Assembly (NCBI RefSeq): GCF_001425005.1
Contig: NZ_LMDB01000003.1
Coordinates: 124,264-188,263 of the forward strand
Source of the DNA: Duganella sp. Root336D2
GTDB lineage: Bacteria > Pseudomonadota > Gammaproteobacteria > Burkholderiales > Burkholderiaceae_D
Direction of reading: 5' to 3'
DNA: 64,000 bases
A program made the position numbers and the translations under genes. Below are positions 20,104 through 48,244 of this stretch, in pieces. The notes under the pieces are model-generated. The model was given only the letters and a program-made list of their open reading frames with translations, was not told the origin of the DNA and searched no databases. Every line of letters starts with the position of its first letter. Within the stretch, counting starts at the first letter, position 1.

Positions 20104-21192
20104 TTAATTTAATTGCTGCAAGCGCCGTTCGACAAAGGATTGCAGTTCCGGCGAGAGGCGGCCGGAATCCAGCGCACGCTGGAAAGCCGGCTTGGCCTCA
20201 GCCTCACGTTTGTCGCCCTGCAGCGCAATCCCCAGGCCCATCCACCAGATGCCATTGGCAGGCTGCAGTTGCACGGCAGCCCGGTAATGCTCCGCCGCCT
20301 CGCGATGCCGGCCAGCCCGCTCCAGCACACCGCCTAGCATCGCCCGGTAATCGGGATTCGATTGGGCGTAAGGCAGGCTCTTTTCCAGCGTATCCAGGGC
20401 GCCGCTGCCATGTTCCAGTTGCAGGCGTGCCAGCAGCATGGCCATGCCGGTCTGTTCCGGATTCAGCGCCAGGGCTCGCCGCAAATGGCGCATTGCATCG
20501 GCCTGCTGGCCGGTCTCCACCAGCACGCCGACAATCGTCTCGCGCGCAGCCAGGTAGCGCTGGTCCATCTCAAGCGCCGCTTCCAGGTCCGCAATTGCTT
20601 CCGCCACGCGCCCGAACGCCAGCTTGTCCTGGGCACGCTGGAACAGTGCCGTCGCTGATGCCTGTGCGCCTGGCTCGCGCGATGCCGGAGTTACGGCGCC
20701 GCCAGGATTTGCCTGGGCGCGCGCTTGCGTTTTAGGCGCCGCCATGGCGACGTTGTCGCTCTTGCGCCCCGCTGCCTTGGCGCCATTGCTGCCGGCTTCG
20801 CGCTTGGCCGGAGCTGCCGCAACTGTGGCGCCTTCCCTGGCTGCATCGTTGGCAGGTGCTGCAACAGCCGCCACCGCGTCCGCGGCCGGCAGTTGCAAGC
20901 CATCGACCATCTGTTCCGGCGGTGTCGCTTGCGGCTTTTCTGCAACCGGCGCCTGGCGGATAACTCCCGCGACGGGCGTCGCAGCCGCATCCGCGGGCAC
21001 ATTGCGCATATAGCGCCAGCCTGCGAAAGTGGCGACGCAGGCGACAATAATCACTCCGGCGAGAGCCAGCAAGACCGTGCGGTTGCGCGAAGTCCCGTAC
21101 TGGACCGCCTGCACGGAATCGGAAAGGCCGCTCCCTTGTGGAGCGCCGCCCCTGGCATCCAGGTCCTGCAGCATTTTGTTAATCAGGCTCAT
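20104..21192 (-). CDS. mshN: MSHA biogenesis TPR protein MshN
   Basis: The 362-residue product from the ATG at 21192 begins MSLINKMLQDLDARGG, the MshN signature, and has one transmembrane helix (about 39-59). A Pro/Ala-rich linker and a tetratricopeptide array follow in the C-terminal half (for example FGRVAEAIADLEAALEMDQRYLAARET). In MSHA systems it sits in the inner membrane with MshL and MshM and probably helps assemble the filament base. Its start overlaps the mshM stop by four bases. A frame opening 78 bases upstream is not needed. It is the last gene of the left locus. Confidence 0.88.
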   Translation of the reverse strand: MSLINKMLQDLDARGGAPQGSGLSDSVQAVQYGTSRNRTVLLALAGVIIVACVATFAGWRYMRNVPADAAATPVAGVIRQAPVAEKPQATPPEQMVDGLQLPAADAVAAVAAPANDAAREGATVAAAPAKREAGSNGAKAAGRKSDNVAMAAPKTQARAQANPGGAVTPASREPGAQASATALFQRAQDKLAFGRVAEAIADLEAALEMDQRYLAARETIVGVLVETGQQADAMRHLRRALALNPEQTGMAMLLARLQLEHGSGALDTLEKSLPYAQSNPDYRAMLGGVLERAGRHREAAEHYRAAVQLQPANGIWWMGLGIALQGDKREAEAKPAFQRALDSGRLSPELQSFVERRLQQLN

Positions 21193-22088
21193 AAGCTCAA
21201 ACGATAAGACAGCAAAGCGCCCGCGGCAGCGAGTGCTGCCAGGGCAAGTCCCGTGGCCAGCCACGGCCATCCGCGCCGGCTGGCCACCGCGGTATCCTTG
21301 GCGGCCAGTTTCACGTGGTGCGCATCAATGCGCTGGCGCCCTTGGCCGTATGCGACCAGCATGGCCTTGTGCGCAATGATGTTAACCAGGCGCGGGATGC
21401 CCCGGCTGGCAGCGAACAGCTTGCGCACCGCCCCTTTACTGAACAGGCGCGCCCCCGTAAAGCCCGCCACGCGCAGCCGGTGCGCCAGGTAGTACTCCAT
21501 GTCGTCGCGCGTCAAGCCGCCCAGGTCGTGCTGGAACGTTATGCGCTGTGCCAACTGGCGGATCGACCGCACCTGCAAATGCTCATTGAGTTCCGGCTGC
21601 CCGAACAGGACAATCTGCAGCAGCTTGCGTTTTTCCGTTTCCAGGTTGGTCAGCAGGCGCAGCGCTTCCAGGCTTTCGCGCGGGATCGTCTGCGCCTCGT
21701 CGACGCACAGCACGACACGCTTGCCTTGCGCCGCCAGTTCCAGCAAACGCGCGGTCAGCGACTTCAATAACTGGTGCTGGTCGACGTCGCTCGCCAGCGG
21801 CAATTCCAGTTCATCGGCCAGGGCCAGCATCAGGGTGCGTGGCTCAAGCAGCGGATTGGGCAAGTAGGCCGTGACGAAATCGTCGCCAAGCGTTTTCATG
21901 AACGTCCGGCACAGCAGGGTCTTGCCGGTGCCGACTTCGCCCGTGATCTTGATGAATCCTTCGCCGCTGCGCGCAGCCACCAGCAAGGTGTTCAGCGCCT
22001 CCTGCGAGTGCGGGCTCTTGAAGAAAAAGCTGGTGTCCGGCGTAATGCCGAACGGCGCCTCGCGCAAGCCGAAGTGGCTCTCGTACAT
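21189..22088 (-). CDS. mshM: MSHA biogenesis AAA ATPase MshM
   Basis: The 299-residue ExeA/GspA-like AAA ATPase has Walker A GEVGTGKT at 50-57, Walker B VVLCVDEAQ and the sensor region LRLLTNLETEKRKLLQIVLFGQPEL. A C-terminal transmembrane helix (about 273-295) anchors it in the inner membrane. Such proteins help assemble the secretin. It starts one base after the mshL stop and overlaps mshN by four bases. The right locus encodes a clear paralog at 36373 that shares MYxxHFGLxEAPFGITP but lacks the C-terminal helix. Confidence 0.92.
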   Translation of the reverse strand: MYESHFGLREAPFGITPDTSFFFKSPHSQEALNTLLVAARSGEGFIKITGEVGTGKTLLCRTFMKTLGDDFVTAYLPNPLLEPRTLMLALADELELPLASDVDQHQLLKSLTARLLELAAQGKRVVLCVDEAQTIPRESLEALRLLTNLETEKRKLLQIVLFGQPELNEHLQVRSIRQLAQRITFQHDLGGLTRDDMEYYLAHRLRVAGFTGARLFSKGAVRKLFAASRGIPRLVNIIAHKAMLVAYGQGRQRIDAHHVKLAAKDTAVASRRGWPWLATGLALAALAAAGALLSYRLSL

Positions 22089-22089
22089 A

Positions 22090-23871
22090 TCAGCGGCGCC
22101 CCGTCGACTGCTTCGGATCGAGAAGGTCGATGCGGCGGCTGCTTTCCATCAGGTCGTGGCTCCAGTCGCTGGCCGTATCGACAATGGTGGGCTTGATCAG
22201 GACCACCAGCTCACGCTTCTGGATGGTGTCGGCCGTGCTGCGGAACAAGCCGCCAATCACAGGGATGCGGCCGGCAACCGGGATTTGCGAGCGGTCGGCA
22301 CTGGTCGACTGGCGCATCAGGCCGCCGATCGCCACCACGCTGCCGTTCTCGCCGCGCACCATGCTGTCCATCTCCGAAGTGGCGGATGCCGCCAGCGGCA
22401 GGTTCAGGCTGCCGGCATTGCCCAGGTTGATATTCTTGTTCACCGTTGATACCTGGCTCACCGACGGGTGCACGTGCAGGATGATATTGCCTTTTTCATC
22501 GATCTGCGGCGTAACGTCCAGTACCACGCCGGAGAAGAACGGCTGCAGCGTGACATTCGGCGACACCGTGCCATTGCCGGTCGCATTGGTATTGGTGGTG
22601 GTGCTGACGCCGGTGACGAAGAATTCGTCGGTGCCGATCTTCAGCACTGCTTTCTGGTTGTTCAGTGTGGCAATGCGCGGGCTGGACAGCACATGCACCG
22701 TACCCTGCGACTCAAGGAAGGAAATCAGGGCCGCGAAATTGGAGCTCTGGAACGCCAGGCCGAACAGCGAACCTGGCGCACTGGCGGCAGCTGCCAGCGT
22801 GCTGCCAGGCGTACCCAGCAAGCCGTTCGGCTGGCCTATGAGGGAATTGGCGCCGTTAATGCGCGGCGCCAGCGCCGTGCCCGGGGCGATCATGCCGGCG
22901 GAAATGCGCGAACCGAAGGCGGCCCAGTTGATGCCGGACTGCGCCTTCTCGCTCAGCTCCACCTCGAGGATTTTTGCCTCCAGGATCACCTGGCGCGCGA
23001 CTGCCAGCTGGGTCGCCTTCAGGTAACGGTCGACGTTACGCAGGTCTTCCGGCATGCCGCGGATCACCACCAGGCCCGATTGGGGGCTGATGACGACGGC
23101 GCGCCCATCCTTGCCGGCGCCGACGATCGCTTCCAGCGACATCTTCAGCTCGGCCCAGAAATCGGACTCTGAGCGCGTGGTGACATTGGCCGCTTCATCC
23201 AGCACGTTGGCATTCGGCGAATTCGGGTCGCCATTATTGTTATTGCGGTTCTGGCGATTGTTGTTGCTGGAGTCACCATTGTTATTGTTGTTATTGTTGT
23301 TACCGGCGTTCTGCACCGATGTCGACGTCACGCGCAGGTTCGACGAGCCGCGGCGCGACGCGGTCAGGTAATTCACCTGGAACATCCGGCTTTGCATGGT
23401 CAGCGGCTTGATCGAAATGCGCGTGCCCTCGATCCGGTAGTCATAGCCGTACATCTCGCGCACCGCCTCCAGCGCCTCCGCAAGCGTCACGTCCTTCAGG
23501 TTGGCCGTGATATTGCCGCTGACTTCGGGGTGCACCAGCATGTTGTAGCGCGTGCCTGCCACCAGCGAATTGAAGAACTGGCTCGCCGGCACATCATTGA
23601 AGGCGACATTGAAGCGCTCTTCCAGCACCGGGCGCGCCTTAGGCAGCTGCCCTGCCAGTTGTTCGGCCGACGGCAGCAAGGCGTCGGATACCTGGCGCGG
23701 AACCGGCGCCGCAGCCGCTGACTGCGCCGCGGTTTTCACCTCGTTGCTGATGGTGCTGTAGGTGTCGCGCATCGGCGTCTGGGTACATGCCGCCAGCATT
23801 GCGAATGCGCCGCTGCCCATCGCCAGCCGGCAAATTTGTGAAGCTTTCGAGATGCTCGTTTTCTCTGTCAT
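22090..23871 (-). CDS. mshL: MSHA secretin MshL
   Basis: This outer-membrane secretin forms the gated pore through which the pilus exits. It has a lipoprotein signal (LAAC, Cys29), N-terminal secretin-associated domains (about 80-160) and a C-terminal secretin core with the VPVIGGLF region (IPVAGRIPVIGGLFRSTADT). Between the N and core parts lies an unusual Asn-rich tract (residues 188-220, almost all N with G, S and D), encoded by AAC/AAT triplets. The start at 23871 overlaps the mshK stop by four bases. Length (593) fits MshL. Confidence 0.94.
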   Translation of the reverse strand: MTEKTSISKASQICRLAMGSGAFAMLAACTQTPMRDTYSTISNEVKTAAQSAAAAPVPRQVSDALLPSAEQLAGQLPKARPVLEERFNVAFNDVPASQFFNSLVAGTRYNMLVHPEVSGNITANLKDVTLAEALEAVREMYGYDYRIEGTRISIKPLTMQSRMFQVNYLTASRRGSSNLRVTSTSVQNAGNNNNNNNNGDSSNNNRQNRNNNNGDPNSPNANVLDEAANVTTRSESDFWAELKMSLEAIVGAGKDGRAVVISPQSGLVVIRGMPEDLRNVDRYLKATQLAVARQVILEAKILEVELSEKAQSGINWAAFGSRISAGMIAPGTALAPRINGANSLIGQPNGLLGTPGSTLAAAASAPGSLFGLAFQSSNFAALISFLESQGTVHVLSSPRIATLNNQKAVLKIGTDEFFVTGVSTTTNTNATGNGTVSPNVTLQPFFSGVVLDVTPQIDEKGNIILHVHPSVSQVSTVNKNINLGNAGSLNLPLAASATSEMDSMVRGENGSVVAIGGLMRQSTSADRSQIPVAGRIPVIGGLFRSTADTIQKRELVVLIKPTIVDTASDWSHDLMESSRRIDLLDPKQSTGRR

Positions 23872-24224
23872 GGCTGTTGCGCCTTATCCTGTCCCGATGA
23901 TACCAATTTCAATACTTGTTTCTGCTTCCCGCGTTGCAGGACAACGGCACTCTCGCGTACCTCGACCAGCACGGCGCCGCCCACCTTCCCGCCCAGGGGG
24001 ACAATGGCACCGTCAATCACTGCCAGCTTGCGCCCGCCCGGGCGGCGCGCCACCAACACCGATTGCAGCTGGGGACCGGCGGCAACTACCGCCACGGCCG
24101 GACCACTGCGCTCGGTTTGCGGCGCCAGCACTTCCGGCGGCGGCCTGGTCGGGTCGGGCAGCGCCGTTTGCGCCAATACCGGCATTGCGGCAAACGCCAC
24201 CAGGGCGGCCAGGATAATTCTCAT
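23868..24224 (-). CDS. mshK: MSHA biogenesis protein MshK
   Basis: The 118-residue protein has a signal peptide (about 1-18, ending VLAQ) and a DPTRPPPEVLAP motif, typical of PilP/MshK-type periplasmic proteins that connect the inner-membrane platform to the secretin. The short C-terminal beta domain is visible as LQSVLVARRPGGRKLAVIDGAIVPLGGKVGGAVL. It overlaps mshJ upstream (24221-24224) and mshL downstream (23868-23871). The family is small and divergent, so assignment leans on position and the DPTRPP motif. Confidence 0.88.
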   Translation of the reverse strand: MRIILAALVAFAAMPVLAQTALPDPTRPPPEVLAPQTERSGPAVAVVAAGPQLQSVLVARRPGGRKLAVIDGAIVPLGGKVGGAVLVEVRESAVVLQRGKQKQVLKLVSSGQDKAQQP

Positions 24225-24916
24225 AGCTTCACCCAGGTTTCGTCGAGACTCAATGTGTACACCGTCAGCCTCAGGCTGGTCTCAGGATGCTTGATGACAC
24301 TCAGGCGTGCGCTGCCCCAGATCAGGCGCGGCGACACTTTTTCCAGTGTTGCCATATAGCCCAGCAGGTCGGCATAACTGCCCTGCACCACCAGCTCGAC
24401 CCCATGGCGGTACAGGATCGCCGGCGCCTGGCTGGACGGCTGCGGGGCCGCGCCCTGCGCGGCTGCGACAGCCTGGTCGAACTGTCCGTCGCGCAAGCCG
24501 CTGACCGGCAAAGTCTTCATCCCCACCACCTTCAGCCCGGGATGGCCGGCCAGCATTTGTTGCAGCAGCGGGACGATGCGCTGCGGCTGCACCATGCCCT
24601 GTTTGCGGTTCAACAAATCCTCGCTGGTTACGCGCGTTTCTTCCTGCACCGTGGCCAGGCGGCGCCGCATGGTGGCATTCGGATCCGCCTCGTAAGCCTT
24701 CAGCGTGGCAGCTATTTCCTTGTCCAGCGTGTCGGTCTGGGACTGTCCCTGCTGGATGGCGGCATGCAGCGACTGGCGCTCGGCCAGCATGGGTCCGAAT
24801 TTTCCGAACCATGCAATGCCGGCGACCAGCACGATGCCCGCAGCGAACAGGGCCGCTCGCTGCGGCAGCGGCATGGCATCAATGCGTTGTTCCAGTTTCA
24901 GCAGCGCGGCCTTCAT
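24221..24916 (-). CDS. mshJ: MSHA biogenesis protein MshJ (PilO-like)
   Basis: The 231-residue inner-membrane protein has one N-terminal helix (about 21-39, AALFAAGIVLVAGIAWFGK), then a long predicted coiled coil (residues 45-110) and a C-terminal ferredoxin-like region, as in PilO/GspM. It would pair with the PilN-like partner at 24913 in the platform. It overlaps both neighbours by four bases. Assignment comes from topology and operon order. Confidence 0.85.
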   Translation of the reverse strand: MKAALLKLEQRIDAMPLPQRAALFAAGIVLVAGIAWFGKFGPMLAERQSLHAAIQQGQSQTDTLDKEIAATLKAYEADPNATMRRRLATVQEETRVTSEDLLNRKQGMVQPQRIVPLLQQMLAGHPGLKVVGMKTLPVSGLRDGQFDQAVAAAQGAAPQPSSQAPAILYRHGVELVVQGSYADLLGYMATLEKVSPRLIWGSARLSVIKHPETSLRLTVYTLSLDETWVKL

Positions 24917-25647
24917 TGGTTCACCCCGCTTGGCACGGCGGCCGTACTGCGCAGCCGGAACTCAAGGAAACGCACCGGCGGCGGCGCTTCGGCCGGGGCG
25001 GCTGCCGCTGCCAGCGCCCCAGCTGCCGTGCTGCCTGCAACCGGCGGCAACGCTGTCAGCGGCATGTTCCCGGCCACGTCGGCGGCCGGCGCCTGCACTG
25101 CCGCAGGTCCCAATTCCAGGGTCTGGAAAGACTTGCCGCGCAAGACAGGTTCACCGCCAAGGCGCGACAGGTAGGCCGGCACCAGCGCCGCCTGCAGCAC
25201 GCGGCCCTGCATGCTCACGTCGCGCCGCTCGCCCTCTACTGCTACTTCCGTCAGCCATAAGCCGCTGACGCTCTGGCGTGCCAGAGCGCGGAAATACTCG
25301 GCGAAGCCTGCGGCGCCTTCGCCTTCGGCCTGGCGCAGCATCTGCATCGCTTGCTGCAGCGATTTCAAGCGTGATTCTTTCGTTGCCAGCTCAGCCTTCA
25401 AGACCGGGTCGCTGGGGCGCGGCGCAAACTCCGCGGCCACCGCCTGCACCCGCGCCTGCCGCTCCTTCAAGCGCATCTCCTGCTGCGACGCCTGCTTGCG
25501 CAAGGGCTGCAACTGCTGGTCGGCGAAAATGGTGATCGCAATGGTGCCGGCCGCCATGGCCAGCAGGGCGAGCGCCATGCCGCGCGCGCCAAGGCTGTGG
25601 CGCTGCCGCATGAAGATCGGGTTGAACAGGTTGATCTGCTGGCTCAT
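24913..25647 (-). CDS. PilN-like MSHA biogenesis protein (MshI2)
   Basis: The 244-residue protein starts MSQQINLFNPIFMRQRHSLG, where QQINLFNP is the short PilN-type N-terminal motif that docks onto the PilM-like partner. A helix follows (about 24-43, MALALLAMAAGTIAITIF), then a coiled coil and a periplasmic region with a long Ala/Pro-rich linker. It overlaps mshI upstream and mshJ downstream by four bases each. In several proteobacteria this gene is called mshI2. Confidence 0.85.
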   Translation of the reverse strand: MSQQINLFNPIFMRQRHSLGARGMALALLAMAAGTIAITIFADQQLQPLRKQASQQEMRLKERQARVQAVAAEFAPRPSDPVLKAELATKESRLKSLQQAMQMLRQAEGEGAAGFAEYFRALARQSVSGLWLTEVAVEGERRDVSMQGRVLQAALVPAYLSRLGGEPVLRGKSFQTLELGPAAVQAPAADVAGNMPLTALPPVAGSTAAGALAAAAAPAEAPPPVRFLEFRLRSTAAVPSGVNQ

Positions 25648-26588
25648 GGCGCGATCACTTCCTGGCGCAATGCTGCGCCGAGGGCGAAGAAGTAATGCGC
25701 CTGCTGCGCGCTGTCCTGCAACTCAGGCACAGCGGACAGGTCGATCACTTCCGCCAGGTTGCATTGGACTACCGGCATATACATATTCGACGACAGGTAA
25801 TTCAGCAGCGGCTCGCCGCAGCCGGGGGCCAGCGCCATCCTGGAGATTGAAACAAAGCCGAACTGCCGCTCGAAGTGGTCGAGCGAACGCTGGATCTCCA
25901 GCATCAGCCGGTCCAGTGCGGCATGGCGGCGATCGGCATCGCCCTCGTCCAGCAGTGCCGGCGTGACATCGATCCGGCGCGCCAGATACAGCTCGCCCTG
26001 GTAAGTGACGGTCAACAGGCCGCCCTGCGCGCCGATCGACAGCATCGCCAGGCCGCGTCCCTCCTGCTCCAGCAAAGCCGATACGTTGCGCTGGGCTGTC
26101 TCCGGAATGTCGATCACCTCCAGGTCGATGTCGGCGCCGAAGAACAGTTCCTGGCGCTGGCGGATCACGCTATTACGTGCCGCCACCACGAACATGCTGG
26201 GCGTGCGGCCGCTGGCGCGCTCCACCGGAATCGCCATCACATCGAAGGTCGCGTCGTCGACGTGGAAGTCGAGCATGTCCTTCATACGCCAGCGCACGGC
26301 CGTCTTCAGTTCATCTTGCGGAACGTTGGGTGCCTCCAGCGTCAACAGCTGGTACTCGCTGGGCGAGAGCAGCGTACTACAGCGGAATCGCGCGGCATTG
26401 CGCGAACGCGCCGCGCGCGCCAGCGCCTCGTCGGCGCCCTGGCCTTCAAGTCCCGCCTCCACACAGCCAAGCAGCACAGGCGTGCTTGCGCCGTGCCGGC
26501 GCATCGTCGCCAACGCCATGCCTTGCGGCATAGGCGCAAACACCAGCCAGGCGTCTTTTTCCTTTTTAGCTTTCGAAAAGAATCGCAT
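25644..26588 (-). CDS. mshI: MSHA biogenesis protein MshI (PilM-like)
   Basis: The 314-residue protein lacks a membrane helix and resembles actin-like PilM/GspL cytoplasmic domains that bind the PilN-type partner. The TLLSPSEYQLLTLEAPNVPQDELKTAVRWRMKDMLDF region is typical of the MshI/PilM family. It is the first gene of the I-(PilN)-J-K-L-M-N block, in which every junction overlaps or nearly abuts. It lies 87 bases downstream of the mshQ stop, so it may have an extra promoter there. Confidence 0.88.
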   Translation of the reverse strand: MRFFSKAKKEKDAWLVFAPMPQGMALATMRRHGASTPVLLGCVEAGLEGQGADEALARAARSRNAARFRCSTLLSPSEYQLLTLEAPNVPQDELKTAVRWRMKDMLDFHVDDATFDVMAIPVERASGRTPSMFVVAARNSVIRQRQELFFGADIDLEVIDIPETAQRNVSALLEQEGRGLAMLSIGAQGGLLTVTYQGELYLARRIDVTPALLDEGDADRRHAALDRLMLEIQRSLDHFERQFGFVSISRMALAPGCGEPLLNYLSSNMYMPVVQCNLAEVIDLSAVPELQDSAQQAHYFFALGAALRQEVIAP

Positions 26589-26618
26589 CGCGCCCTGTCT
26601 TCAAACTTTTAGATGAAG

Positions 26619-26636
26619 AAACAATCGTAATTGTTT
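26619..26636. promoter_or_regulatory. 18-bp dyad between mshQ and mshI
   Basis: AAACAATCGTAATTGTTT forms perfect 7-bp arms around CGTA in the 87-base spacer between the mshQ stop and the mshI start. It is AT-rich and short of a T-run, so it looks more like an operator than a terminator. No binding protein is proposed. Confidence 0.35.
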
Positions 26637-26675
26637 GATTAATATGCCATATTTTGCCATTGTTCAGCCCCGGTG

Positions 26676-29804: not shown

Positions 29805-29808
29805 TTCT

Positions 29809-32174: not shown

Positions 32175-32198
32175 CGCTCCGTTATATTGCCGGGCCGC

Positions 32199-32726: not shown

Positions 32727-32770
32727 CACTTCTCCCATGAGTTCAAAAATCATACGGACCAGCGTCATGG

Positions 32771-34485: not shown

Positions 34486-34486
34486 C

Positions 34487-39074: not shown

Positions 39075-40708
39075 GCTTGCTGATGCAGGCCTTGCGCAAG
39101 GCCGAACGCGCGCGCGCGCAGAACGGACATGATGCGGAACACGAGCCCAGCCTGGAGCCGCCACCATTTGGTGCGGATGCCGTGCCTTCGCCTGCGCCGA
39201 TCGAAGGCGGACCTGCCTTCGCTGTCATGCCTGACGCCTGGCGGCTCGAACCGCTTGATGCCGAGCCACCGGTCGTTGCGGCGCAGGAAGCGGCACATGA
39301 CCCTGTGCCGCCGCAAGCGCGCCATGAGCCGAAGCAGCCGCCGCCTGCAGCGGCCGCCCCACGCGCCACAGTTTCGCCCCGCGCGGCGGCAGGCAGCCCG
39401 GGCAACGGGGCCGCCGCTGGCCCAGGGAAAGGCATGGAGGCTGGCGGGTCGCGCAGCGCGGGATTGCAGCGGGCGATGGCCTCGCCACCGCGCCGGCTTG
39501 CGATCCTGGCCGCCGCCCTGGCGGCCCTGCTCGCGGTATTTGCCTTTATTTACTGGCGTGCCGTGTCAGCGCCCGGCCCCGGAGCGCGGCTGCCGATGGT
39601 GCCCATGCCGGCGCCCGGATCGCCTCCGGTAGCGCAGGACGGCTCGCAGCAAGGTGCGCCCATACCGGTGACACCCTATGTTACCCCGCCCGGCGGCGAT
39701 CCCGGCCTGCAGGCCGCTGCACCAGGCAGCGCCGCCGGTGCAGCCGAAGCCGGCGCGGGCGACTCGTTTGCCTCGGCGGGCGCCAACGGGACTTCGGGAT
39801 TGGTCGGCGCAGGCGCTGCCACGCCAACGCCAACGCCTGCCGCAAAAGCGCCAGCCTCGCGCCCGAATGCCGAGGTTGCGATCCCCACGCCCGAACAGCT
39901 TGCCGCCATCACCGATCCCGCCATTCGCGCCGAAGCAATGCGCGACGCCGGGGAACGCGCGGCACGGCAGGTGCGCGCAGAGGGCGCGGCAGCGTCGCAA
40001 CCGGCTGGAGGGCAAAGCAGGCTGCAGGCACAAAATGCCGGCAGCATTGCGGCCAGCGTCGTAAGATCGCCTGCGCCTAAAACAGCAATAGGCGACACCG
40101 GCACCGTCCAGTTTGTGCGCAGCACGGCGTCGAGCCAGGTCGAGCCAGCCGTACAGAATGGCTACGCCGCCCTGAAGTCCGGCGACCTCGCCACCGCGCA
40201 CCAGCAATACGATCTCGCCCTGCTGCAAGACCCGACGAACCGCGACGCACTGCTCGGCGCCGCCGCCGTGGCGCTGCGCGAACACGATGGGCAACAGGCA
40301 TCCAGCAATTACCTGCGCCTGCTCGAACTGGACCCCAACGACCCGGATGCCCTGGCCGGACTCACCGAACTGCGCCCCGGCGACCTGCAGGCAAACGAGA
40401 TCAAACTGCGCGGCCTGGCGCGCCAGCACCCCGACTCCGGCCCCGTGCAATTCGCCCTTGGCAACCTGTTCGCGCGCCAGGGCCGCTGGCCGGAAGCCCA
40501 GCAAAGCTACTTCCGCGCCTTCAGCGCCATGCCCGAAAACGCGGACTACGCTTTCAACCTTGGCGTCGGCCTTGACCGCATGAACCAGCCGCGCCTGGCC
40601 CAAACCTATTACCGCCGCGCGCTGGAACTGGCGCAGGCCAGTCCTCCAACATTCAACATCGAAGCCGTCCGCAAGCGATTGCAAATCCTGGAAACGCCGC
40701 CCCGATAA
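39071..40708 (+). CDS. MshN-like TPR membrane protein (right filament locus)
   Basis: The 545-residue protein starts MSLLMQALRKAERARAQ, a GspB/MshN-like cytoplasmic lead. It has a single helix (about 141-162, AILAAALAALLAVFAFIYWRAV), a long Pro/Ala/Gly-rich periplasmic linker and a C-terminal TPR array (from about 355, for example LKSGDLATAHQQYDLALLQDP). It is longer than MshN of the left locus (362) because of the linker. It overlaps the secretin stop by four bases and precedes the ATPase by six bases. Confidence 0.87.
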   Translation: MSLLMQALRKAERARAQNGHDAEHEPSLEPPPFGADAVPSPAPIEGGPAFAVMPDAWRLEPLDAEPPVVAAQEAAHDPVPPQARHEPKQPPPAAAAPRATVSPRAAAGSPGNGAAAGPGKGMEAGGSRSAGLQRAMASPPRRLAILAAALAALLAVFAFIYWRAVSAPGPGARLPMVPMPAPGSPPVAQDGSQQGAPIPVTPYVTPPGGDPGLQAAAPGSAAGAAEAGAGDSFASAGANGTSGLVGAGAATPTPTPAAKAPASRPNAEVAIPTPEQLAAITDPAIRAEAMRDAGERAARQVRAEGAAASQPAGGQSRLQAQNAGSIAASVVRSPAPKTAIGDTGTVQFVRSTASSQVEPAVQNGYAALKSGDLATAHQQYDLALLQDPTNRDALLGAAAVALREHDGQQASSNYLRLLELDPNDPDALAGLTELRPGDLQANEIKLRGLARQHPDSGPVQFALGNLFARQGRWPEAQQSYFRAFSAMPENADYAFNLGVGLDRMNQPRLAQTYYRRALELAQASPPTFNIEAVRKRLQILETPPR

Positions 40709-40714
40709 AGCACA

Positions 40715-42409
40715 ATGGCCGACACGCAGAAAATCCCGCTCGGCAAACTGCTGATCCAGAAAGGCGTCATCAGCCAAGACCAGCTGCGGATCGCACTGAC
40801 CGAGCAAACACGCAACAACGAGCCCCTGGGCAAGTTGCTGATTGCGCTCGGCTTCGTGACCGAAGCGACGATGCGCGAGGCGCTCAGCGAAAAGCTGAAT
40901 ACCCGCTCGGCCGACCTGAAAAGCCTGGTGGTCGACGCCGTTGCACTCCAGCTGATTCCCAAGGAGGTGGCCAAGCGCTACCGGGTCTTCCCCATCGTGT
41001 ACGAACGGGCGACCGATGAACTGGTGCTGGCCATGTCCGACACCACCAACATCGTCGCGCTCGACCAGATCAACGCCATGCTGGTCAAGGGCATCACGCT
41101 GGTGCCGCTGCTGGTCAACGATTCCGATATCGCCTACGCCATTGACCATTACTACGGTTTTGAGCTGTCGATCGACGGCATCCTGCACGAAATCGAAACC
41201 GGCGAGGTGACGCTGGATGCCGCCTCCGACGAATACAGCCAGCCCATGGTGCGCCTGATCGACGCCCTGCTGGCCGATGCGGTGCAGAACAGCGCTTCGG
41301 ATATCCACTTCGAGCCCGAGCACAGCTTCCTGCGCATCCGCTACCGTATCGACGGCATCCTGCGCCAGATCCGCAGCCTGCACCGCTCGTACTGGCCCGC
41401 CATGGCCGTGCGGCTCAAGGTGATCAGCCATATGAACATCGCGGAAACCCGCGCGCCGCAGGATGGCCGCATTTCGATCCGGTTTTCCGGCCGCCAGATC
41501 GACTTTCGCGCCAGCAGCCAGCCCACCACCCATGGCGAAAACATCGTGCTGCGCGTGCTGGACCGCCAGAAAGGCATCGTCCCCCTGGAAAAGCTGGGCC
41601 TGGCCGAGCATGAACTCGACGTATTGAAGCTGATGATCGCGCGGCCCGACGGGCTGATCCTTGTCACCGGCCCCACTGGCAGCGGCAAGACCACCACGCT
41701 GTACTCGATCCTGAACCATATCAACACGGAATCCGTGAACATCATGACCATGGAAGACCCGGTCGAATATCCCATGCACCAGATCCGCCAGACCTCGGTC
41801 AACGAATCGGCCAAGCTGGGCTTTGCCGACGGCATCCGCTCCATGATGCGCCAGGACCCCGACGTGATCCTGGTCGGCGAAATCCGTGACAAGGAGACCG
41901 CCGACATGGCGCTGGCGGCAGCCATGACCGGGCACCAGGTCTATTCCACGCTGCACACCAATTCCGCGGTCGGCGCCATTCCGCGCCTGCTCGACCTTGG
42001 CGTAGTAGCCGATGTCCTGTCGGGGAATATCATCGGCATCATCGCCCAGCGCCTGGTGCGCAAGCTTTGCCCGCACTGCAGGCAGCCGGTCGAAGCCGAC
42101 GAACTGGAACGACGCCTGCTCGGGCTCCCGGCCGACCAGGCGCCCGTCACGATCTTCCGCGCCGGCGCCTGCGACCGCTGCGCGCACCAGGGCTACAAAG
42201 GCCGCATGGCGATCATGGAGCTGTTGCGAATGAGCGCTGAATTTGACGAAATGGTGGCGCGCCGCGCACCGGCGCGGGAGCTGCGCAATGCCGCCCGTGC
42301 CGCCGGCCTGCACTCGCTGGTAGACGACGGCATGCGCCGCGTGATGGAAGGCCTGACCACGCTGGACGAGGTGTCGCGCGTGGTCGACCTCACTGACAGG
42401 CTGAGCTGA
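40715..42409 (+). CDS. Second GspE/PilB-type assembly ATPase (right filament locus)
   Basis: The 564-residue ATPase has an MshE N-like domain (IPLGKLLIQKGVISQDQLRIALTEQTRNNEPLGKLLIALGFVTE, about 7-50), Walker A GPTGSGKTT at 319-327, MEDPVEYP, Walker B DPDVILVGEIRD and the C-terminal tetracysteine (CPHC...CDRC). The N-terminal spacing is close to the c-di-GMP-binding MshE domain, but arginine in the RLGxxL position is replaced (PLGKLL), which may alter binding. It is clearly distinct from mshE at 34487. No PilT-type retraction ATPase is present in either locus. Confidence 0.92.
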   Translation: MADTQKIPLGKLLIQKGVISQDQLRIALTEQTRNNEPLGKLLIALGFVTEATMREALSEKLNTRSADLKSLVVDAVALQLIPKEVAKRYRVFPIVYERATDELVLAMSDTTNIVALDQINAMLVKGITLVPLLVNDSDIAYAIDHYYGFELSIDGILHEIETGEVTLDAASDEYSQPMVRLIDALLADAVQNSASDIHFEPEHSFLRIRYRIDGILRQIRSLHRSYWPAMAVRLKVISHMNIAETRAPQDGRISIRFSGRQIDFRASSQPTTHGENIVLRVLDRQKGIVPLEKLGLAEHELDVLKLMIARPDGLILVTGPTGSGKTTTLYSILNHINTESVNIMTMEDPVEYPMHQIRQTSVNESAKLGFADGIRSMMRQDPDVILVGEIRDKETADMALAAAMTGHQVYSTLHTNSAVGAIPRLLDLGVVADVLSGNIIGIIAQRLVRKLCPHCRQPVEADELERRLLGLPADQAPVTIFRAGACDRCAHQGYKGRMAIMELLRMSAEFDEMVARRAPARELRNAARAAGLHSLVDDGMRRVMEGLTTLDEVSRVVDLTDRLS

Positions 42410-42410
42410 T

Positions 42411-43607
42411 ATGCCACAGTTCATTTACCGCGCCATGGACGCCAGCGGCAGCATCGTGCCGGGGAATATGGACGCGCATAATGTGCCCGACCTCGAACTG
42501 CGCCTGCAGCGCATGGCGCTGGACCTGATCGACTACCGCGAAACGCGCCAGCGCAAGCTGCGCATCGGCGGCCAGCGCGTGACGCGGCGCGACCTGATCA
42601 ACTTCTGCTTCCACCTTGAGCAAATGAGCAGTGCCGGCGTGCCGATGCTGGAAGGATTGCGCGACCTGCGCGATGGCGCCGACAACCTGCGGCTGCGAGA
42701 AATCATTACCGACCTGGTGGAGAAGATCGAAGGCGGCCTGCAACTCTCCAGTGCGCTGGCATCGTATCCGGAGGTCTTCGACCAGAGTTTTACCAGCCTG
42801 GTACGCGCAGGCGAGCAAAGCGGCAAGGTCAATGAAGTCTTCCGCGACCTGGCGGAAAACCTCAAATGGCAAGATGAGCTGGCGGCGCAGGCGCGCAAGG
42901 CCATCACCTATCCGGCCTTTGTGCTGGTCATCGTCAGCGGGGTGATGTTCTTCCTGATGATCTACCTGGTGCCGCAGCTGACTGCATTCATCAAGAACAT
43001 GGGGCAGGAGCTGCCGCTGCATACGCGTATCCTGATCGCGCTGTCGGACATTTTTATCCATTACTGGTACCTGCTGCTGGCGATGCCGGTGTTGGCGTGG
43101 CAGCTGCTGCGCTGGCAGTTGCGGCGCGACGATCGCACTGCTTTCGCCTTCGACCGCCTGATGCTGCGTGCGGTACCGGTGCTGCACAAACTGATCATGG
43201 CCCGCTTCGCGACCTATTTCGCCCTGATGTATTCCGCCGGGATTCCCGTGCTCGAATGCATTCGCCTGTCGGAAGGCATTGCCGGCAACCGCGTGGTGGC
43301 GGCCGCCATGCGCCGCGCGCGCGAGCTGATTTCGGAAGGCCATACCGTCGCTGCGGCCTTCAAGCAGGTCGAGCTGTTCCCGCCGCTGGTGGTGCGCATG
43401 CTGCGCGTTGGCGAAGCCACCGGCGCACTCGATGCGACGCTGCGCAATGTCGCCTATTTCTACAACCGCGAAGTAAGGGAGCGGATCGAGCGCATGCAAT
43501 CCATGATCGAGCCGGCGATGACCGTGATCCTCGGCATCGTGCTGGGCTGGATCATGCTCTCCGTGCTCGGGCCGATTTACGACACCATCAGTTCGATCAG
43601 GATCTGA
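42411..43607 (+). CDS. Second GspF/PilC-type platform protein (right filament locus)
   Basis: The 398-residue platform protein has two GspF domains (about 60-185 and 265-385) and hydrophobic helices (KAITYPAFVLVIVSGVMFFLMIYLVPQLTAF; IEPAMTVILGIVLGWIMLSVLGPIY). It starts one base after the ATPase stop and ends four bases before the next gene. It is paralogous to mshG at 33250, with which it shares the family layout. Confidence 0.93.
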   Translation: MPQFIYRAMDASGSIVPGNMDAHNVPDLELRLQRMALDLIDYRETRQRKLRIGGQRVTRRDLINFCFHLEQMSSAGVPMLEGLRDLRDGADNLRLREIITDLVEKIEGGLQLSSALASYPEVFDQSFTSLVRAGEQSGKVNEVFRDLAENLKWQDELAAQARKAITYPAFVLVIVSGVMFFLMIYLVPQLTAFIKNMGQELPLHTRILIALSDIFIHYWYLLLAMPVLAWQLLRWQLRRDDRTAFAFDRLMLRAVPVLHKLIMARFATYFALMYSAGIPVLECIRLSEGIAGNRVVAAAMRRARELISEGHTVAAAFKQVELFPPLVVRMLRVGEATGALDATLRNVAYFYNREVRERIERMQSMIEPAMTVILGIVLGWIMLSVLGPIYDTISSIRI

Positions 43608-43611
43608 GTCC

Positions 43612-45156
43612 ATGACCCGCAAACTACTCCTGCACCTGACCGGCGAGCGGCTTTGCTGCTGGCTGTGGGAACGCGGCAGCCTCGGTACCGGTCCCTGCTT
43701 CGAGCACACGCCCGCCGGCTTGCAGCAATTTACCGCATGGCTGGAGGGCCGCGAGGATACGCCTGCCCTGATGCTGGCCGACCTGGTGGAAGAAGACTTC
43801 CAGCGCCACTTGCTGCCGCACGTTGCCGGCCGCGCGGGGCACGCCATGCGCGACAGGCGCCTGGCGCAGGCGTGGCGCGACACGCCTTTCCGCTGCGCGC
43901 ACGTACAAGGCCGCGAGGATGAGGGGCGGCGCGACGATATCGTTCTCCTCTCCGCGCTGACCAACCCGGCCATGCTTGTCCCCTGGCTCGAGGCGCTGGA
44001 AAGCCAGCGTATTCCGCTGGCGGCGCTTTATACGCCCGCACTCCTGAGCGCAGACTTGCTGCCGGAAGGAGCACGGCAGGAGCCGCATCTCCTGCTGGTG
44101 ACGGAGCATGCGGGCGGCATAAGGCAGACCTATTTCCAGTACGGTAAACTGCGCTTTTCCCGGCTCGCGCAAGCCGCGGCAAGTCCCGAGCAGGAAGCGG
44201 AGCGCACCCGCCAGTTCCTGGTCGGCGCGCACATGCTGAAACGCGACCTACCCTTGCAGGTGCTGGCTTTGCTGCCCCTGGCCCGTATCGCCACCCCGCC
44301 CGCGGCCAGCATTGCCCCGCTGCTTGACTGGCGCGTCATGCCGCTGGCGGAAGCGGCGGCCCGGCAACGGCTGGCTGCTTCCGACAATCCCGACCAGCTG
44401 ATTCTCGGCATGGCGGCACGCACCGCCCCGCCCAGCCACTACCCGCTTGGTGTACGCCAGCGCTATTACAGCCTGTGGCGCGCGCGCAAATCCCTGTATG
44501 CGTCGAGCGCGGTCATGGCGGCATGCTGCCTGTTGTGGACGGGCGCCAATATGATCGGCTACTCGCTGGCGCGCAGCCATACGCAGGCGCTACAGCGGGA
44601 GACGCATGGATTCACCACCGCGTACCAGGGCAGCATGTCAAGCATGCCGCCAGCCGTCGACAAGACTGCCAATATGAAGGCCGCGGTGCAGATCGCGCAA
44701 ATGGTGGCGCGCCAGGGACCTTGGCCGCAGGCGGTCATGGCCGTGCTGAGCGAGGCCCTTGAGCGTTCACCGCAAATCCGCTTGACGCAGCTCGATTGGC
44801 GGGCCAATGCTCCAGGCGTGGCGCCGGTGACGGCGAGCAGCGCCTTCCCGGGCACGGCAACTTCGCCTGCCCTGGTGGCGCCCCAGTCGTCCATGCTGAT
44901 CGGGATTCCCAAGGCGCCGCCGCAGCAGGTGCGGCTGCAGGCAGAAGTGCTGGTAGGCCAGGACGACTATCGCAGCGTCCTGCTCAGCATGAATCGCTTT
45001 GCGCAGGAACTGGCGCGCACGCCGGGCATGACGGTGGAGATCGAGCAACTGCCGTTTGATGTCAGGCCAAACGTCAAACTCAGTGGCAAGGCGGGTTCGC
45101 CGACCGGCCTGGGAGAGCGCTCCAAATTCACTTTGAATCTCAGGTGGGCGCCATGA
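43612..45156 (+). CDS. PilM/PilN-like membrane protein (right filament locus)
   Basis: The 514-residue protein has a large cytoplasmic region (about 1-295) that looks like an actin-like PilM/GspL domain, one central helix (about 297-318, SLYASSAVMAACCLLWTGANMIGYSLA) and a periplasmic part. One protein thus appears to combine a PilM-like and a PilN-like role. Assignment relies on topology and operon order (after the GspF gene, before a PilO-like and a PilP-like gene). It overlaps the next start by four bases. Confidence 0.72.
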   Translation: MTRKLLLHLTGERLCCWLWERGSLGTGPCFEHTPAGLQQFTAWLEGREDTPALMLADLVEEDFQRHLLPHVAGRAGHAMRDRRLAQAWRDTPFRCAHVQGREDEGRRDDIVLLSALTNPAMLVPWLEALESQRIPLAALYTPALLSADLLPEGARQEPHLLLVTEHAGGIRQTYFQYGKLRFSRLAQAAASPEQEAERTRQFLVGAHMLKRDLPLQVLALLPLARIATPPAASIAPLLDWRVMPLAEAAARQRLAASDNPDQLILGMAARTAPPSHYPLGVRQRYYSLWRARKSLYASSAVMAACCLLWTGANMIGYSLARSHTQALQRETHGFTTAYQGSMSSMPPAVDKTANMKAAVQIAQMVARQGPWPQAVMAVLSEALERSPQIRLTQLDWRANAPGVAPVTASSAFPGTATSPALVAPQSSMLIGIPKAPPQQVRLQAEVLVGQDDYRSVLLSMNRFAQELARTPGMTVEIEQLPFDVRPNVKLSGKAGSPTGLGERSKFTLNLRWAP

Positions 45157-45779
45157 TCGTCTTTCGCGAGTTTTCCCTGCTGCGAAATGCCGTGCTGGTG
45201 TTCCTGGCCACGCTGGCCGTTTCGCTGGCCCTGGTGTCTGCGAGTTCATGGCATCTGCGGCGCGCCCATTTCGAGGAGGCCGCAGCTGTACTGGAACGCG
45301 ACGGGGCGCGCTTGCGGCTGGCCCACGCCGAGACGGAAAAGGAAGAGATCCGCCAGTACCAGCCGCAGTTCGTGGAGCTGCGCCGCCGCGGACTGGTGGG
45401 GCCCGAGCGGCGGCTCGACTGGGTGGAGGCGATCCGGCAGATTCAGGAGCAGCGGCGCTTGCTGCCTTTGACTTATGAAATCGAGGTCCAGCAGCCGTAC
45501 CGGCTTGAGACCACGTTACCGACGGGCGACTACGCCTTGCTTGGCAGCCGGATGGCCCTGCATATGGACTTGCTGCACGAACTGGATTTACTGAACTTCC
45601 TTTCCGACCTGCGTTTGACCGGGACTTTCGCCGTGCAGGATTGCGTGATCCGGCGCGCTGCGGGCGCATCGCCGGCAACCGGCGTCCTGGCGCCGACCCT
45701 GAATGCCGATTGCACCTTGAACTGGCTGACCTTGACGCCTGCCACGACGCCCGGAAAGCCGCTGCGAGGCCCGCTATGA
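45153..45779 (+). CDS. PilO/MshJ-like protein (right filament locus)
   Basis: From the ATG at 45153, which overlaps the upstream stop as ATGA, the product is 208 residues. It has one N-terminal helix (about 10-34, RNAVLVFLATLAVSLALVSASSW), then a coiled coil (RRAHFEEAAAVLERDGARLRLAHAETEKEEIR) and a small C-terminal domain, like PilO. A GTG 9 bases earlier is less likely. It overlaps the next gene by four bases. Confidence 0.72.
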   Translation: MIVFREFSLLRNAVLVFLATLAVSLALVSASSWHLRRAHFEEAAAVLERDGARLRLAHAETEKEEIRQYQPQFVELRRRGLVGPERRLDWVEAIRQIQEQRRLLPLTYEIEVQQPYRLETTLPTGDYALLGSRMALHMDLLHELDLLNFLSDLRLTGTFAVQDCVIRRAAGASPATGVLAPTLNADCTLNWLTLTPATTPGKPLRGPL

Positions 45780-46318
45780 GGCGCGGTTTGCCGGCGCTGC
45801 TTCTGCTACTGGCCTGCCAGGCTGGCGCGCAGAGTTTCGTCAGCCTGGGGCGGCTGTTCACCACGCCGGACGAACGCGTGCGGCTTGATGCGCAGCGCAA
45901 CCAGGCGGCGCCAGCCGGCAGCATAGCGGGGCCGGGCAGCGTCCAACCGCCGGCCGGCGGGACTGCTGCGCCGGGGATGAATTCATCGCCGGGCTGCCCC
46001 CCCGGGGCGGCGCCGGGATGCTTGCCGGCTGGCGAGCCCGGCATGGGCGGTGCGAACGGCGCCATGACAGGCGCGGACGGTACGGCCGAGCTGCCGGGAG
46101 CGGGCAATGCGGAGCCGGCAGGACTTCGGCTGGGCGGGGTGATCCGGCGCAGCAATGGCGCGGCGATGATCATCGTGAATGGCGAAGCGCAGCCCGCGCC
46201 CCCGGGGGCTGCCACGCGCGGCACGGTTACTTTGCAGGCTGACGGGCGCTCTGTCGTGCTGAAGCCGGGCCAGCGCTACGATCCGGCCACTGGGGAAGTG
46301 CATGAAGCCGCGCGCTAA
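45776..46318 (+). CDS. PilP/MshK-like periplasmic protein (right filament locus)
   Basis: From the ATG at 45776 (ATGA overlap) the product is 180 residues with a signal peptide (MRRGLPALLLLLACQAGA), a GRLFTTPDERVRLDAQRNQ segment and a C-terminal beta domain (LRLGGVIRRSNGAAMIIVNGEAQP...GQRYDPATGEV) that resembles GspC/PilP homology-region folds. A Gly/Pro-rich linker joins them. It may contact the secretin. It overlaps the first pilin-like gene by 17 bases. Confidence 0.72.
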   Translation: MRRGLPALLLLLACQAGAQSFVSLGRLFTTPDERVRLDAQRNQAAPAGSIAGPGSVQPPAGGTAAPGMNSSPGCPPGAAPGCLPAGEPGMGGANGAMTGADGTAELPGAGNAEPAGLRLGGVIRRSNGAAMIIVNGEAQPAPPGAATRGTVTLQADGRSVVLKPGQRYDPATGEVHEAAR

Positions 46319-46976
46319 GCAAGGCGGCGCTGCGCTACTGGCGCTCCTGCTGGTTGCCACGGTAGCCATGGCTGCGCTGCTGCTGTCGGCTTTCAGCGGC
46401 GGCAGCGTCGAACGCGCACGTGAACAGCGAACCCATGCCCTGCTGGCGCAAGCCAACGAGGCACTGATCGGCTTTGCCGCGACCCACGGCCGCCTGCCGC
46501 GGCCCGCGACGGACGAGGCCGGACGCGAACGATCGGCATCGTGTGCCAGCGAAGCCGACTGCAGCGGCCTGCTGCCGTGGATGGAGCTGGGCGTGCCGGC
46601 GCAAGACAACTGGGGCCGCCAATTGCGCTACAGCGTAACGCCGGCATTCACCGTCGCACCGCTGGCACGGACCGCACTGGTTGCCGGCAAGCGCGTCCTG
46701 TCGCGCGACGCGAGTGGCGCGCTGTTCTTCGTGGCCGGCCAAGAGACATGTTCGCTGGCCGCGCAATGTTCGCCGGCGCTCATCTTCTCGCGCGGCCGCA
46801 GCGATGCGCTGGACAGCCAGGACGAAGCCGGCAACCTGCAGGCGACCGCCGACTTCATGCAGCGGCCACGCAGCGCCGACAGCGACGCGCCGGGCGGCGC
46901 CTTCGACGACCTGCTCGTCACCGTCCCCCTGCACACGCTCTACGAAAGGATGGCGGCCGCCAGGACCCTGCCATGA
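46302..46976 (+). CDS. Atypical pilin-like protein (right filament locus)
   Basis: The 224-residue protein begins MKPRAKQGG|AALLALLLVATVAMAALLLSAF, a hydrophobic N-terminal helix with Gly where prepilin peptidase would cut, but with no Phe and no Glu5, like GspK/PilX minor pilins. The globular part (EALIGFAATHGRLPRPATDEAG...GLLPWMELGVP...APGGAFDDLLVTVPLHTLYERM) is paralogous to the next protein. Four cysteines lie in two short loops. It overlaps both neighbours. Confidence 0.78.
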   Translation: MKPRAKQGGAALLALLLVATVAMAALLLSAFSGGSVERAREQRTHALLAQANEALIGFAATHGRLPRPATDEAGRERSASCASEADCSGLLPWMELGVPAQDNWGRQLRYSVTPAFTVAPLARTALVAGKRVLSRDASGALFFVAGQETCSLAAQCSPALIFSRGRSDALDSQDEAGNLQATADFMQRPRSADSDAPGGAFDDLLVTVPLHTLYERMAAARTLP

Positions 46977-47674
46977 AACAGCAAACTGCCTTCACCCTGG
47001 TTGAAATGGCGATCGTGCTGGTGATCGTCGGCCTGCTGCTGGGCGGCATGCTGGCGCCCCTGTCGGCGCAGATGGAACAGCGGCGCGCCGCCGATACCAT
47101 CAAAGCGCTGGAAGAAGCACGCGACGCGCTGGCCGGATTCGCCGCCCGCAACGGCTACCTGCCCTGCCCCGCCATCTCCGCCTCCAACGGCCTGGAGGAC
47201 CGCAGCGGCACCCGCTGCAGCAACGGGCGCCGCCTCGGGTTCCTGCCGTGGGCGACCCTGGGCCTGCCCAAGCTCGACGCCTGGCAGCACCTCTACCTGT
47301 ACAGCGTCACCCCTTCGTTCAGCGACAGCGGCGTGCCGTTCCGCCTCAACACCGCGCGCGACATCAGCATCGCCAGCCGTGAAGCGACGGGCGCACTGGT
47401 ACCGGCCAGCGCCCAGAACGATATTCCCGCCGTGGTGCTGTCGCAAGGCCGCAATGGCTTCGGCGCCTTCAGCGACGTAGGCGTGCAGGCTGCCGACATG
47501 GGCCAGGGCAATGTCGACGAAAAAGCCAACTTCCAGGGCGACGGCCGCATGTTCATCGCGCGCGACCGCGCCGACAACCCTGCTGCTCCAGGCGGCGCTT
47601 ATGACGATATCGTGGTCTGGCTATCGCCCAACATCCTGTTCAACCGAATGCTCGCAGCCCAAAGGCTGCCGTGA
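46973..47674 (+). CDS. Prepilin with Ala at the cleavage site (right filament locus)
   Basis: From the ATG at 46973 (ATGA overlap) the product is 233 residues. The N terminus is MKQQTA|FTLVEMAIVLVIVGLLLGG. It has Phe1 and Glu5 of a prepilin, but Ala rather than Gly at -1, which prepilin peptidases tolerate poorly. The body shares GFAARNGYLPCPA, GFLPWATLGLP and the C-terminal APGGAYDDIVVWLSPNILFNRM pattern with the preceding protein, so the two arose by duplication. A longer upstream frame lies inside the preceding gene and is a shadow. Confidence 0.85.
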   Translation: MKQQTAFTLVEMAIVLVIVGLLLGGMLAPLSAQMEQRRAADTIKALEEARDALAGFAARNGYLPCPAISASNGLEDRSGTRCSNGRRLGFLPWATLGLPKLDAWQHLYLYSVTPSFSDSGVPFRLNTARDISIASREATGALVPASAQNDIPAVVLSQGRNGFGAFSDVGVQAADMGQGNVDEKANFQGDGRMFIARDRADNPAAPGGAYDDIVVWLSPNILFNRMLAAQRLP

Positions 47675-47695
47675 ACACAAACCAAGGAGAGCGCC

Positions 47696-48244
47696 ATGAA
47701 ACATCGCGGCTTCACCCTCGTTGAAATCGCCATTGTCCTGGTCATCATCGGCCTGCTGCTTGGCGGCGTGCTGAAAGGCCAGGCCCTGATCGACAGCGCC
47801 AAGGTCAAAAGCATCATCCAGCAGGCCACGGCATTGCAGGCGGCAGTCAACGCCTACCAGGACCGCTTCCGCGCCCTGCCCGGCGACGATATCCTGGCCA
47901 CCACCCACATTCCCGGAGCAGCCGGCAATGGCAATGGCGACGGCCAGATCACCGAATACCAGCTGGCGCCGCAGCACCTGGCGCTGGCAGGCCTGATCAC
48001 CGGCTCCTACAACGGCAGCACCGATTTCATGACCAGCGCCCAGGGCGGCGCGGTGTACATTTACAACGACGTGGTCGGCGGCCGGGGCGGTAATGGGATC
48101 CGCTTCGACAACCTGCCGGACACGTTTGCGGAGCAGATCGACGCCAAGCTGGATGACGGCAAACCGGATTCCGGCAACGTGCGCGCGACTGGGCCTTATA
48201 CTAATAACGGAAGCATCATCACGCGCCTGGCAATCTTTTTCTGA
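47696..48244 (+). CDS. Prepilin, candidate main subunit of right locus
   Basis: The 182-residue prepilin has a canonical short leader, MKHRG|FTLVEIAIVLVIIGLLLGGVLKGQALIDSAKVKSIIQQ, with Gly at -1 and Glu5. The body has no cysteine and contains GGAVYIYNDVVGG and a C-terminal GSIITRLAIFF. It resembles a small major pilin or pseudopilin and is the best candidate for the main filament subunit here. It has its own ribosome site (CAAGGAG), 8 bases before the ATG. It is the last gene of the right locus. Confidence 0.85.
   Translation: MKHRGFTLVEIAIVLVIIGLLLGGVLKGQALIDSAKVKSIIQQATALQAAVNAYQDRFRALPGDDILATTHIPGAAGNGNGDGQITEYQLAPQHLALAGLITGSYNGSTDFMTSAQGGAVYIYNDVVGGRGGNGIRFDNLPDTFAEQIDAKLDDGKPDSGNVRATGPYTNNGSIITRLAIFF

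Follow-up and report, generated by a model that had tools for sequence, protein, structure and literature searches.

A second type IV filament locus facing the MSHA operon of Duganella sp. Root336D2 is probably a separate, PilD-dependent filament system

The genome of Duganella sp. Root336D2 raises the question of what a second set of type IV filament genes represents when it stands head-to-head with an operon for the mannose-sensitive haemagglutinin (MSHA) pilus: a copy of that operon, a type II secretion system (T2SS) or a machine of another kind. Both sets lie in a window of 64,000 nucleotides (assembly GCF_001425005.1, contig NZ_LMDB01000003.1, positions 124,264 to 188,263), and coordinates below are counted from its first letter. 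The left set occupies 20104–36193 on the minus strand, the right set (R1–R11) 36373–48244 on the plus strand, and a spacer of 179 bp (36194–36372) separates the start codons of mshE and R1. We consider it likely that the right locus encodes a separate, PilD-dependent type IV filament family, whose motor is not gated by cyclic di-GMP (c-di-GMP) and whose secretin is the sister of that of MSHA. At the level of sequence, its ancestry is distinct from those of MSHA and the T2SS, it is conserved as a unit, and its motor ATPase, R4, has systematically lost the full c-di-GMP contact set. The family seems related to MSHA without belonging to it, and we found no name for it.

The right locus comprises 11 intact genes, whose ten junctions range from a 17-base overlap to a 21-base gap, as in one operon. 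R1 (36373–37257) is an ATPase of the AAA type (ATPases associated with diverse cellular activities; PF13401) with 47% identity to left MshM by BLAST, like all left-right identities given here. R2 (37254–39074) is a secretin (PF00263, PF07655; 33% to MshL over 330 columns) with the start LLAAC, which we take to be lipobox-like. It is followed by R3 (39071–40708), a tetratricopeptide repeat (TPR) protein by family models (32% to MshN over 78 columns), R4 (40715–42409), an assembly ATPase with an MshEN domain (PF00437, PF05157; 39% to MshE, which PF00437 also matches), and R5 (42411–43607), a platform protein of the GspF/PilC type (PF00482; 28% to MshG). Profile comparison with hhalign likewise links R1 to MshM and R3 to MshN, where TPR families may have merged. 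R6 (43612–45156), R7 (45144–45779) and R8 (45776–46318) have no BLAST match to any left protein at E ≤ 0.01, no clear MSHA counterpart by hhalign and no useful family match in Pfam (all three) or NCBIfam (R6 and R7). Three pilin-like genes, R9 (46302–46976), R10 (46973–47674) and R11 (47696–48244), complete the set. A sequence-only reading of the window had listed these genes; the open reading frames are intact at its coordinates, and family models back its gene classes. It was also right that the right locus carries no prepilin peptidase of its own: the single match to PF06750 in the genome lies on another contig (C22) beside pilB, recognized by TIGR02538, in a search that did not cover peptidases with PF01478 only.

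How the two loci are related was addressed with trees of the ATPase (37 rows chosen by us from 153 candidates), the secretin (35 rows) and the platform protein (40 rows), the latter two likewise of our choice. The references are few, drawn from E. coli, Aeromonas and the strain's own paralogs, with three rows for GspE; OWN_C5, OWN_C12_916 and E. coli HofB were left out of the ATPase tree for their long branches. In all three trees, the right locus forms its own clade outside those of MSHA and the T2SS. Among the ATPases, the R (100/100), MSHA (100/99) and GspE (100/98) clades are separate, in agreement with a quick version of 61 rows. The R (98/97) and MSHA (99/99) secretins are sisters (100/99), and a grouping of R with GspD is rejected by the approximately unbiased (AU) test (p 0.016). 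The R platform proteins (100/100) stand apart from those of MSHA (100/99) and nearer to GspF, weakly (87/79). R does not group with the one or two rows used for each of PilB, PilQ and PilC. The left ATPase, secretin and platform all fall into the MSHA clades, and left MshE and MshL share 53% and 38% identity with an MSHA locus in a record from Aeromonas caviae; the left set, which has intact open reading frames in the canonical order mshE, G, F, A, C, D, O, P, Q, I, a pilN-like gene, J, K, L, M, N (mshE 34487–36193, mshL 22090–23871, mshM 21189–22088, mshN 20104–21270), is true MSHA.

These trees bear on the idea of a second but divergent MSHA system, with the right locus as a paralogous msh copy, as the NCBI model for MshL would name it. 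TIGR02519 indeed passes both secretins (right 275.0 bits, left 261.7, cut-off 250.2), and the sister position of R2 to MshL, the 47% identity of R1 to MshM and the missing prepilin peptidase, also absent from the MSH loci in the available text of Denise 2019 (PMC6668835), all point the same way. In the MSH model of that study, mshA, E, G, L and M are mandatory; homologs of mshE, G, L and M are present in the right locus and its pilins match MshA in the N-terminal part only, as judged by BLAST and hhalign. R nevertheless falls outside the MSHA clade in every tree, the right pilins match MshA, MshC and MshP only in short N-terminal stretches, MshO and MshQ have no match among the right-locus proteins, R6 takes the place of two genes of the left operon, one PilM-like and one PilN-like, and the c-di-GMP contact set is lost, so we judge a second MSHA system improbable. 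A chance duplication of msh genes is rejected on the basis of the trees together with the occurrence of R without MSHA.

A search with R6 itself matched 22 of 116 family genomes, one of which is the window's own. A profile of R6 homologs found, at E ≤ 0.001, 73 of the 369 genomes of the class, spread over 37 family groups, and, at E ≤ 1e-10, 39 of the 398 genomes of the phylum, of which 33 do not belong to the class. We fetched loci from 20 of the 21 other matching family genomes (one contig was too short), from 20 of the 73 class genomes and from 6 of the 39 of the phylum search, two of these from the window's own order; what we call named loci are the best 80 kept from one longer scan. The ATPase and platform genes adjoin R6 in all 20 family loci and in 19 of 20 class loci, in one of which R6 is visible by profile only, and the order AAA–secretin–TPR–ATPase–platform–R6–R7 recurs whether or not MSHA lies alongside. 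Among the named loci, holders include Duganella, Pseudoduganella, Massilia, Janthinobacterium and Rugamonas, as well as Undibacterium, Sulfuricella, Gallionella, Dechloromonas and Accumulibacter. Counting MshE as present at E ≤ 1e-160, R6 occurs in 73 and MshE in 106 of the 369 class genomes: 35 have both, 71 MshE only, and 38 R only. The left and right systems are independent in distribution; they co-occur above chance (odds ratio 2.9, p 1.4e-4 without a correction for kinship). The suggestion of the sequence-only reading that the right set builds a second filament is thus borne out as far as a complete second system goes. Of the two outcomes that it named as refuting, placement inside a T2SS or MSHA clade and absence of the set as a unit from all relatives, neither was observed: the set forms its own clade in three trees and recurs as a unit, with and without MSHA. 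Gallionella and Sideroxydans 'MSH' clusters with a rearranged gene order, described in the available part of PMC3770913, may be of the right type, so that the system may already have been described as MSH. We found no paper that names or describes the gene set in a search that left most subscription journals outside, and nothing on the locus in the available part of PMC2907700.

The motors differ in the residues that contact c-di-GMP. Using the motif given in PMC5013675, as far as that text was available, and after removal of 3 truncated R sequences and of identical rows (17 MSHA and 5 R, 22 in all), we find all four contacts (R, Q, K or R, Q) in 74 of 74 MSHA ATPases and the full set in none of 101 R ATPases. 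By position, the latter have R at the first place in 22 cases, Q at the second in 100, R or K at the third in 4 and Q at the fourth in 1, which has P at the third. Their commonest pattern is P, Q, P, N (54/101), and R4 of the window has P, Q, P, K instead of R, Q, R/K, Q. R4 therefore seems no longer to bind c-di-GMP, and with the full set lost, the two neighboring motors would be controlled differently, MshE by c-di-GMP and R4 not; the right motor, unlike MshE, probably does not wait for this signal. Nor need a non-binding motor be dead, because a Vibrio MshE variant without c-di-GMP binding still restored phenotypes and was thought to be constitutively active, according to the accessible text of PMC11656802.

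That the right locus is a remnant or a non-functional duplicate is hardly credible. The window strain does lack an ABC part found in relatives (see below), but its 11 genes are intact and tightly packed, Walker A is kept in 100 of 101 R ATPases, and the R proteins are 74–96% identical to those of the sister locus L043, except R3 (60%) and R8 (54%).

What holds the motor in place can be approached through R6 (514 aa), whose AlphaFold2 model (mean pLDDT, the predicted local distance difference test, of 80) has PilM (5eox, E 6e-10) and the cytoplasmic domains of EpsL/GspL (1yf5 and 4pht; target template modelling score 0.59–0.62) as its nearest solved structures. The model shows a PilM/GspL-like domain carried by a membrane anchor of its own, a long membrane-type helix, and then a further domain that would be periplasmic; this is the plan of GspL. 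R7 (211 aa), which follows R6 in most relatives and gives weak hhalign matches, may take the position of PilO/GspM, and R8, a small secreted-type protein with a weak hhalign match to MshK, that of PilP/MshK. The earlier label of alignment proteins is thereby backed by structure for R6, and is presumptive for R7 and R8. In two loci from another class, a PilM/R6-like domain is fused ahead of an R-type ATPase (L280:6884–9853, 989 aa; L281:8375–11125, 916 aa), the former next to a second, unfused R-type ATPase; the fusions support R6 and R4 as partners. The phylum search gave many further long open reading frames in which the match is likewise partial.

The pilins offer a further comparison. R9 lacks Glu5 and is a candidate tip pilin; it is 33% identical to R10 over 230 columns, the globular domain being common to both by BLAST and hhalign. 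R10 (PF07963) has Glu5 and matches GspG over 104 columns versus 31 for left MshA. Its structure model (mean pLDDT 71.5; the other four models 43.9–52.2) gave no PDB match at E ≤ 0.001, so the greater likeness of R10 to GspG than to MshA is that seen with hhalign. R11 (PF07963) is 96% identical in L043 and L094, 75–88% in several loci of the Duganella/Massilia type (in some of them over part of its length) and 39% in L052 and L120. It is often better conserved than R10 or R6 across related loci, which suggests that it may be the major subunit.

In many relatives, the set includes genes of an ATP-binding cassette (ABC) exporter. Where R1 is present, an ABC ATPase gene precedes it in 13 of 17 family loci, 34 of 71 named loci and none of the 15 class loci. 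Where R7 is present, an ABC-2 permease gene follows downstream in 14 of 18 loci of the family set, 25 of 57 of the named set, 1 of 16 of the class set and 3 of 6 from the phylum search; for a third ABC-side protein, the corresponding numbers are 13, 18, 0 and 2. Loci often stop short, so these counts are lower bounds. The window strain and four related loci lack the ABC genes, and a search of the window's own genome for the permease gave nothing at E ≤ 0.001. Weak ABC matches ahead of R1 in Gallionellaceae and Rhodocyclaceae lie on the opposite strand; we attribute them to a different ABC gene, presumably of the mla type, and did not count them.

These genes, like the GspL-like plan of R6 and the long alignment of R10 to GspG, would fit a T2SS-like machine in which a GspG-like endopilus pushes cargo through R2 and, in relatives, the ABC exporter feeds the machine. 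We think this explanation unlikely, if less so than a second MSHA system: the GspD grouping is rejected for the secretin, no model for GspC, H, I, J or K exceeds its cut-off on R7, R9, R10 or R11 (R8 was searched with Pfam only, and family models alone were used), no recognizable cargo gene is found among the 11, and the ABC genes are absent from the window and four related loci and rare in class loci. Membership in the T2SS itself is rejected for the secretin; the ATPase and platform lie outside the GspE and GspF clades, a sister relation still being allowed by the AU tests.

We prefer to see in the right locus a separate, PilD-dependent filament system. PilD, encoded on another contig, would cut the prepilins R9–R11; by homology, R4, seated on the platform R5 and held by R6 with R7 and R8, would then polymerize R10 and R11, with R9 at the filament tip. 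The filament would pass through the lipoprotein secretin R2, placed by R1 and R3, a role that we assume from those of MSHA/ExeA-type proteins. As for the product, we lean slightly towards a short adhesive pilus, because of the secretin's ancestry; a secretion-type endopilus, to which the GspG-like pilin, the GspL-like plan and the ABC partner point, is possible though more doubtful. More speculative still, and to be given little weight, is the idea of an unrecognized filament class, spread through many families of its own class and at least one other, that forms with the ABC-2 exporter a two-step export machine, from ABC transport into the periplasm to an endopilus acting through a secretin of the MSHA type, and in which another input has replaced c-di-GMP in the control of the motor.

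Several points weigh against the preferred reading of a separate system with an ungated motor. A curated model, as described above, calls R2 'MshL', and the AU test leaves the sister group of the ATPase and platform undecided (R+MSHA p 0.20 and 0.29; R+GspE/F p 0.17 and 0.07). Because MSHA rows were collected by their similarity to the window's MshE, intermediate lineages may have been missed, and type IVa pili (T4aP) contribute one or two rows per tree. Near relatives are numerous among the R rows, which do not count as independent. The NCBIfam model of the c-di-GMP motif passes R4 (67.5 bits, cut-off 38), a sign that annotation alone would miss the loss of the contact set; together with the first Arg in 22 and the first Gln in 100 of 101 proteins, it means that some R members may still bind c-di-GMP. 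The R6 model also matches FtsA and other actin-like proteins, at weaker E-values, and hhalign finds no sequence match of R6 to E. coli GspL or left MshI. Finally, the filament and its product are predicted here from genes alone.

The head-to-head pairing is itself conserved. Among loci with R1 found, 9 of 17 in the family set and 31 of 71 in the named set have MshE divergent from R1 and no more than 3 kb away; the latter are all from genera of the Oxalobacteraceae, going by their record titles. The divergent pair is the usual arrangement in Duganella/Massilia-type Oxalobacteraceae and not unique to the window strain, and its recurrence indicates that it is old and stable there. The sequence-only reading had considered such pairs rare, which these counts do not support for this family. 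It had also proposed shared regulation through the spacer, an idea that is weakened: in 28 of the 31 named and 8 of the 9 family pairs, the spacer measures 839–1243 bp and holds the ABC ATPase gene in R orientation, so the short form looks like a local loss, and no sigma-70-like site was found in the 179-bp spacer. Short spacers without the ABC gene occur in the window and L043 (179–180 bp) and in three named loci (L093, L094 and L095; 149–153 bp). A stretch of about 40 bases, alike by eye in the window, L043, L093 and L094, four strains without the ABC gene, is a possible promoter or operator. Elsewhere, the gene immediately before R1 encodes an NtrC-type sigma-54 regulator (23 of 71 named, 10 of 15 class and 2 of 2 phylum-search loci), always in loci without the ABC ATPase; domains were checked for one such regulator (L157:6979–8433).

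On the left side of L043 and L094, mshE is 95–96% identical to that of the window and mshA 47–54%, while mshD/O/P-like genes, in L043 also a mshC-like gene, stand in the opposite orientation with 29–35% identity, as if the msh pilin cassette (compared with window positions 29809–32768) had been exchanged. Other filament genes occur in the same genome. The ATPases, secretins and platforms of two loci (L174, contig C2, 140000–159999; L175, contig C37, 353000–372999) group together on long branches, and their ATPases and secretins pass no NCBIfam cut-off. On contig C12, an ATPase at 604937–606091 (L181) exceeds the NCBIfam cut-off for TfpB (873 versus 850 bits) and is assigned as a further pilus motor besides PilB, and a T2SSE ATPase of 916 aa (L182, 944143–945375) has, ahead of its MshEN and ATPase domains, an N-terminal extension of about 330 residues.

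If the secretin of a common, unnamed family is called MshL by a curated model, two machines may be mixed in the counts of MSHA for public genomes. Strains with the head-to-head pair, in turn, are natural strains with one motor that has a full c-di-GMP site and one that does not, which allows c-di-GMP gating to be compared side by side within one cell, and the PilM-ATPase fusions and recurring ABC genes are direct leads on partners.

Among known systems, MSHA is akin to the right system in its MshM-, MshL-, MshN-, MshE- and MshG-type genes, its lipoprotein-type secretin, of which the R secretin is the sister, and the lack of a peptidase of its own. By contrast, R forms a separate clade in three trees, has R6 in place of separate PilM- and PilN-like genes, lacks the MshA/C/D/O/P/Q set beyond N-terminal pilin similarity and has lost the full c-di-GMP contact set. 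With the T2SS (GspC–O) it appears to share the plan of R6, GspL-like by structure, the GspG-like R10 and, weakly, a platform nearer to GspF, but its secretin is not of the GspD type, no GspC, H, I, J or K exceeds the cut-off on the scanned open reading frames, and its AAA and TPR partners are of the MSHA type. T4aP (PilB/C/M–Q) have the same overall machine plan and presumably share PilD, whereas the R locus has no PilT and carries its PilM-like domain on its own membrane anchor. In the T4aP of Myxococcus xanthus, according to the available text of PMC6060248, the PilGHI ABC transporter is encoded with the filament locus. The relatives of R resemble it in arrangement, with ABC transporter genes within a filament locus, while the window strain differs in having none of them.

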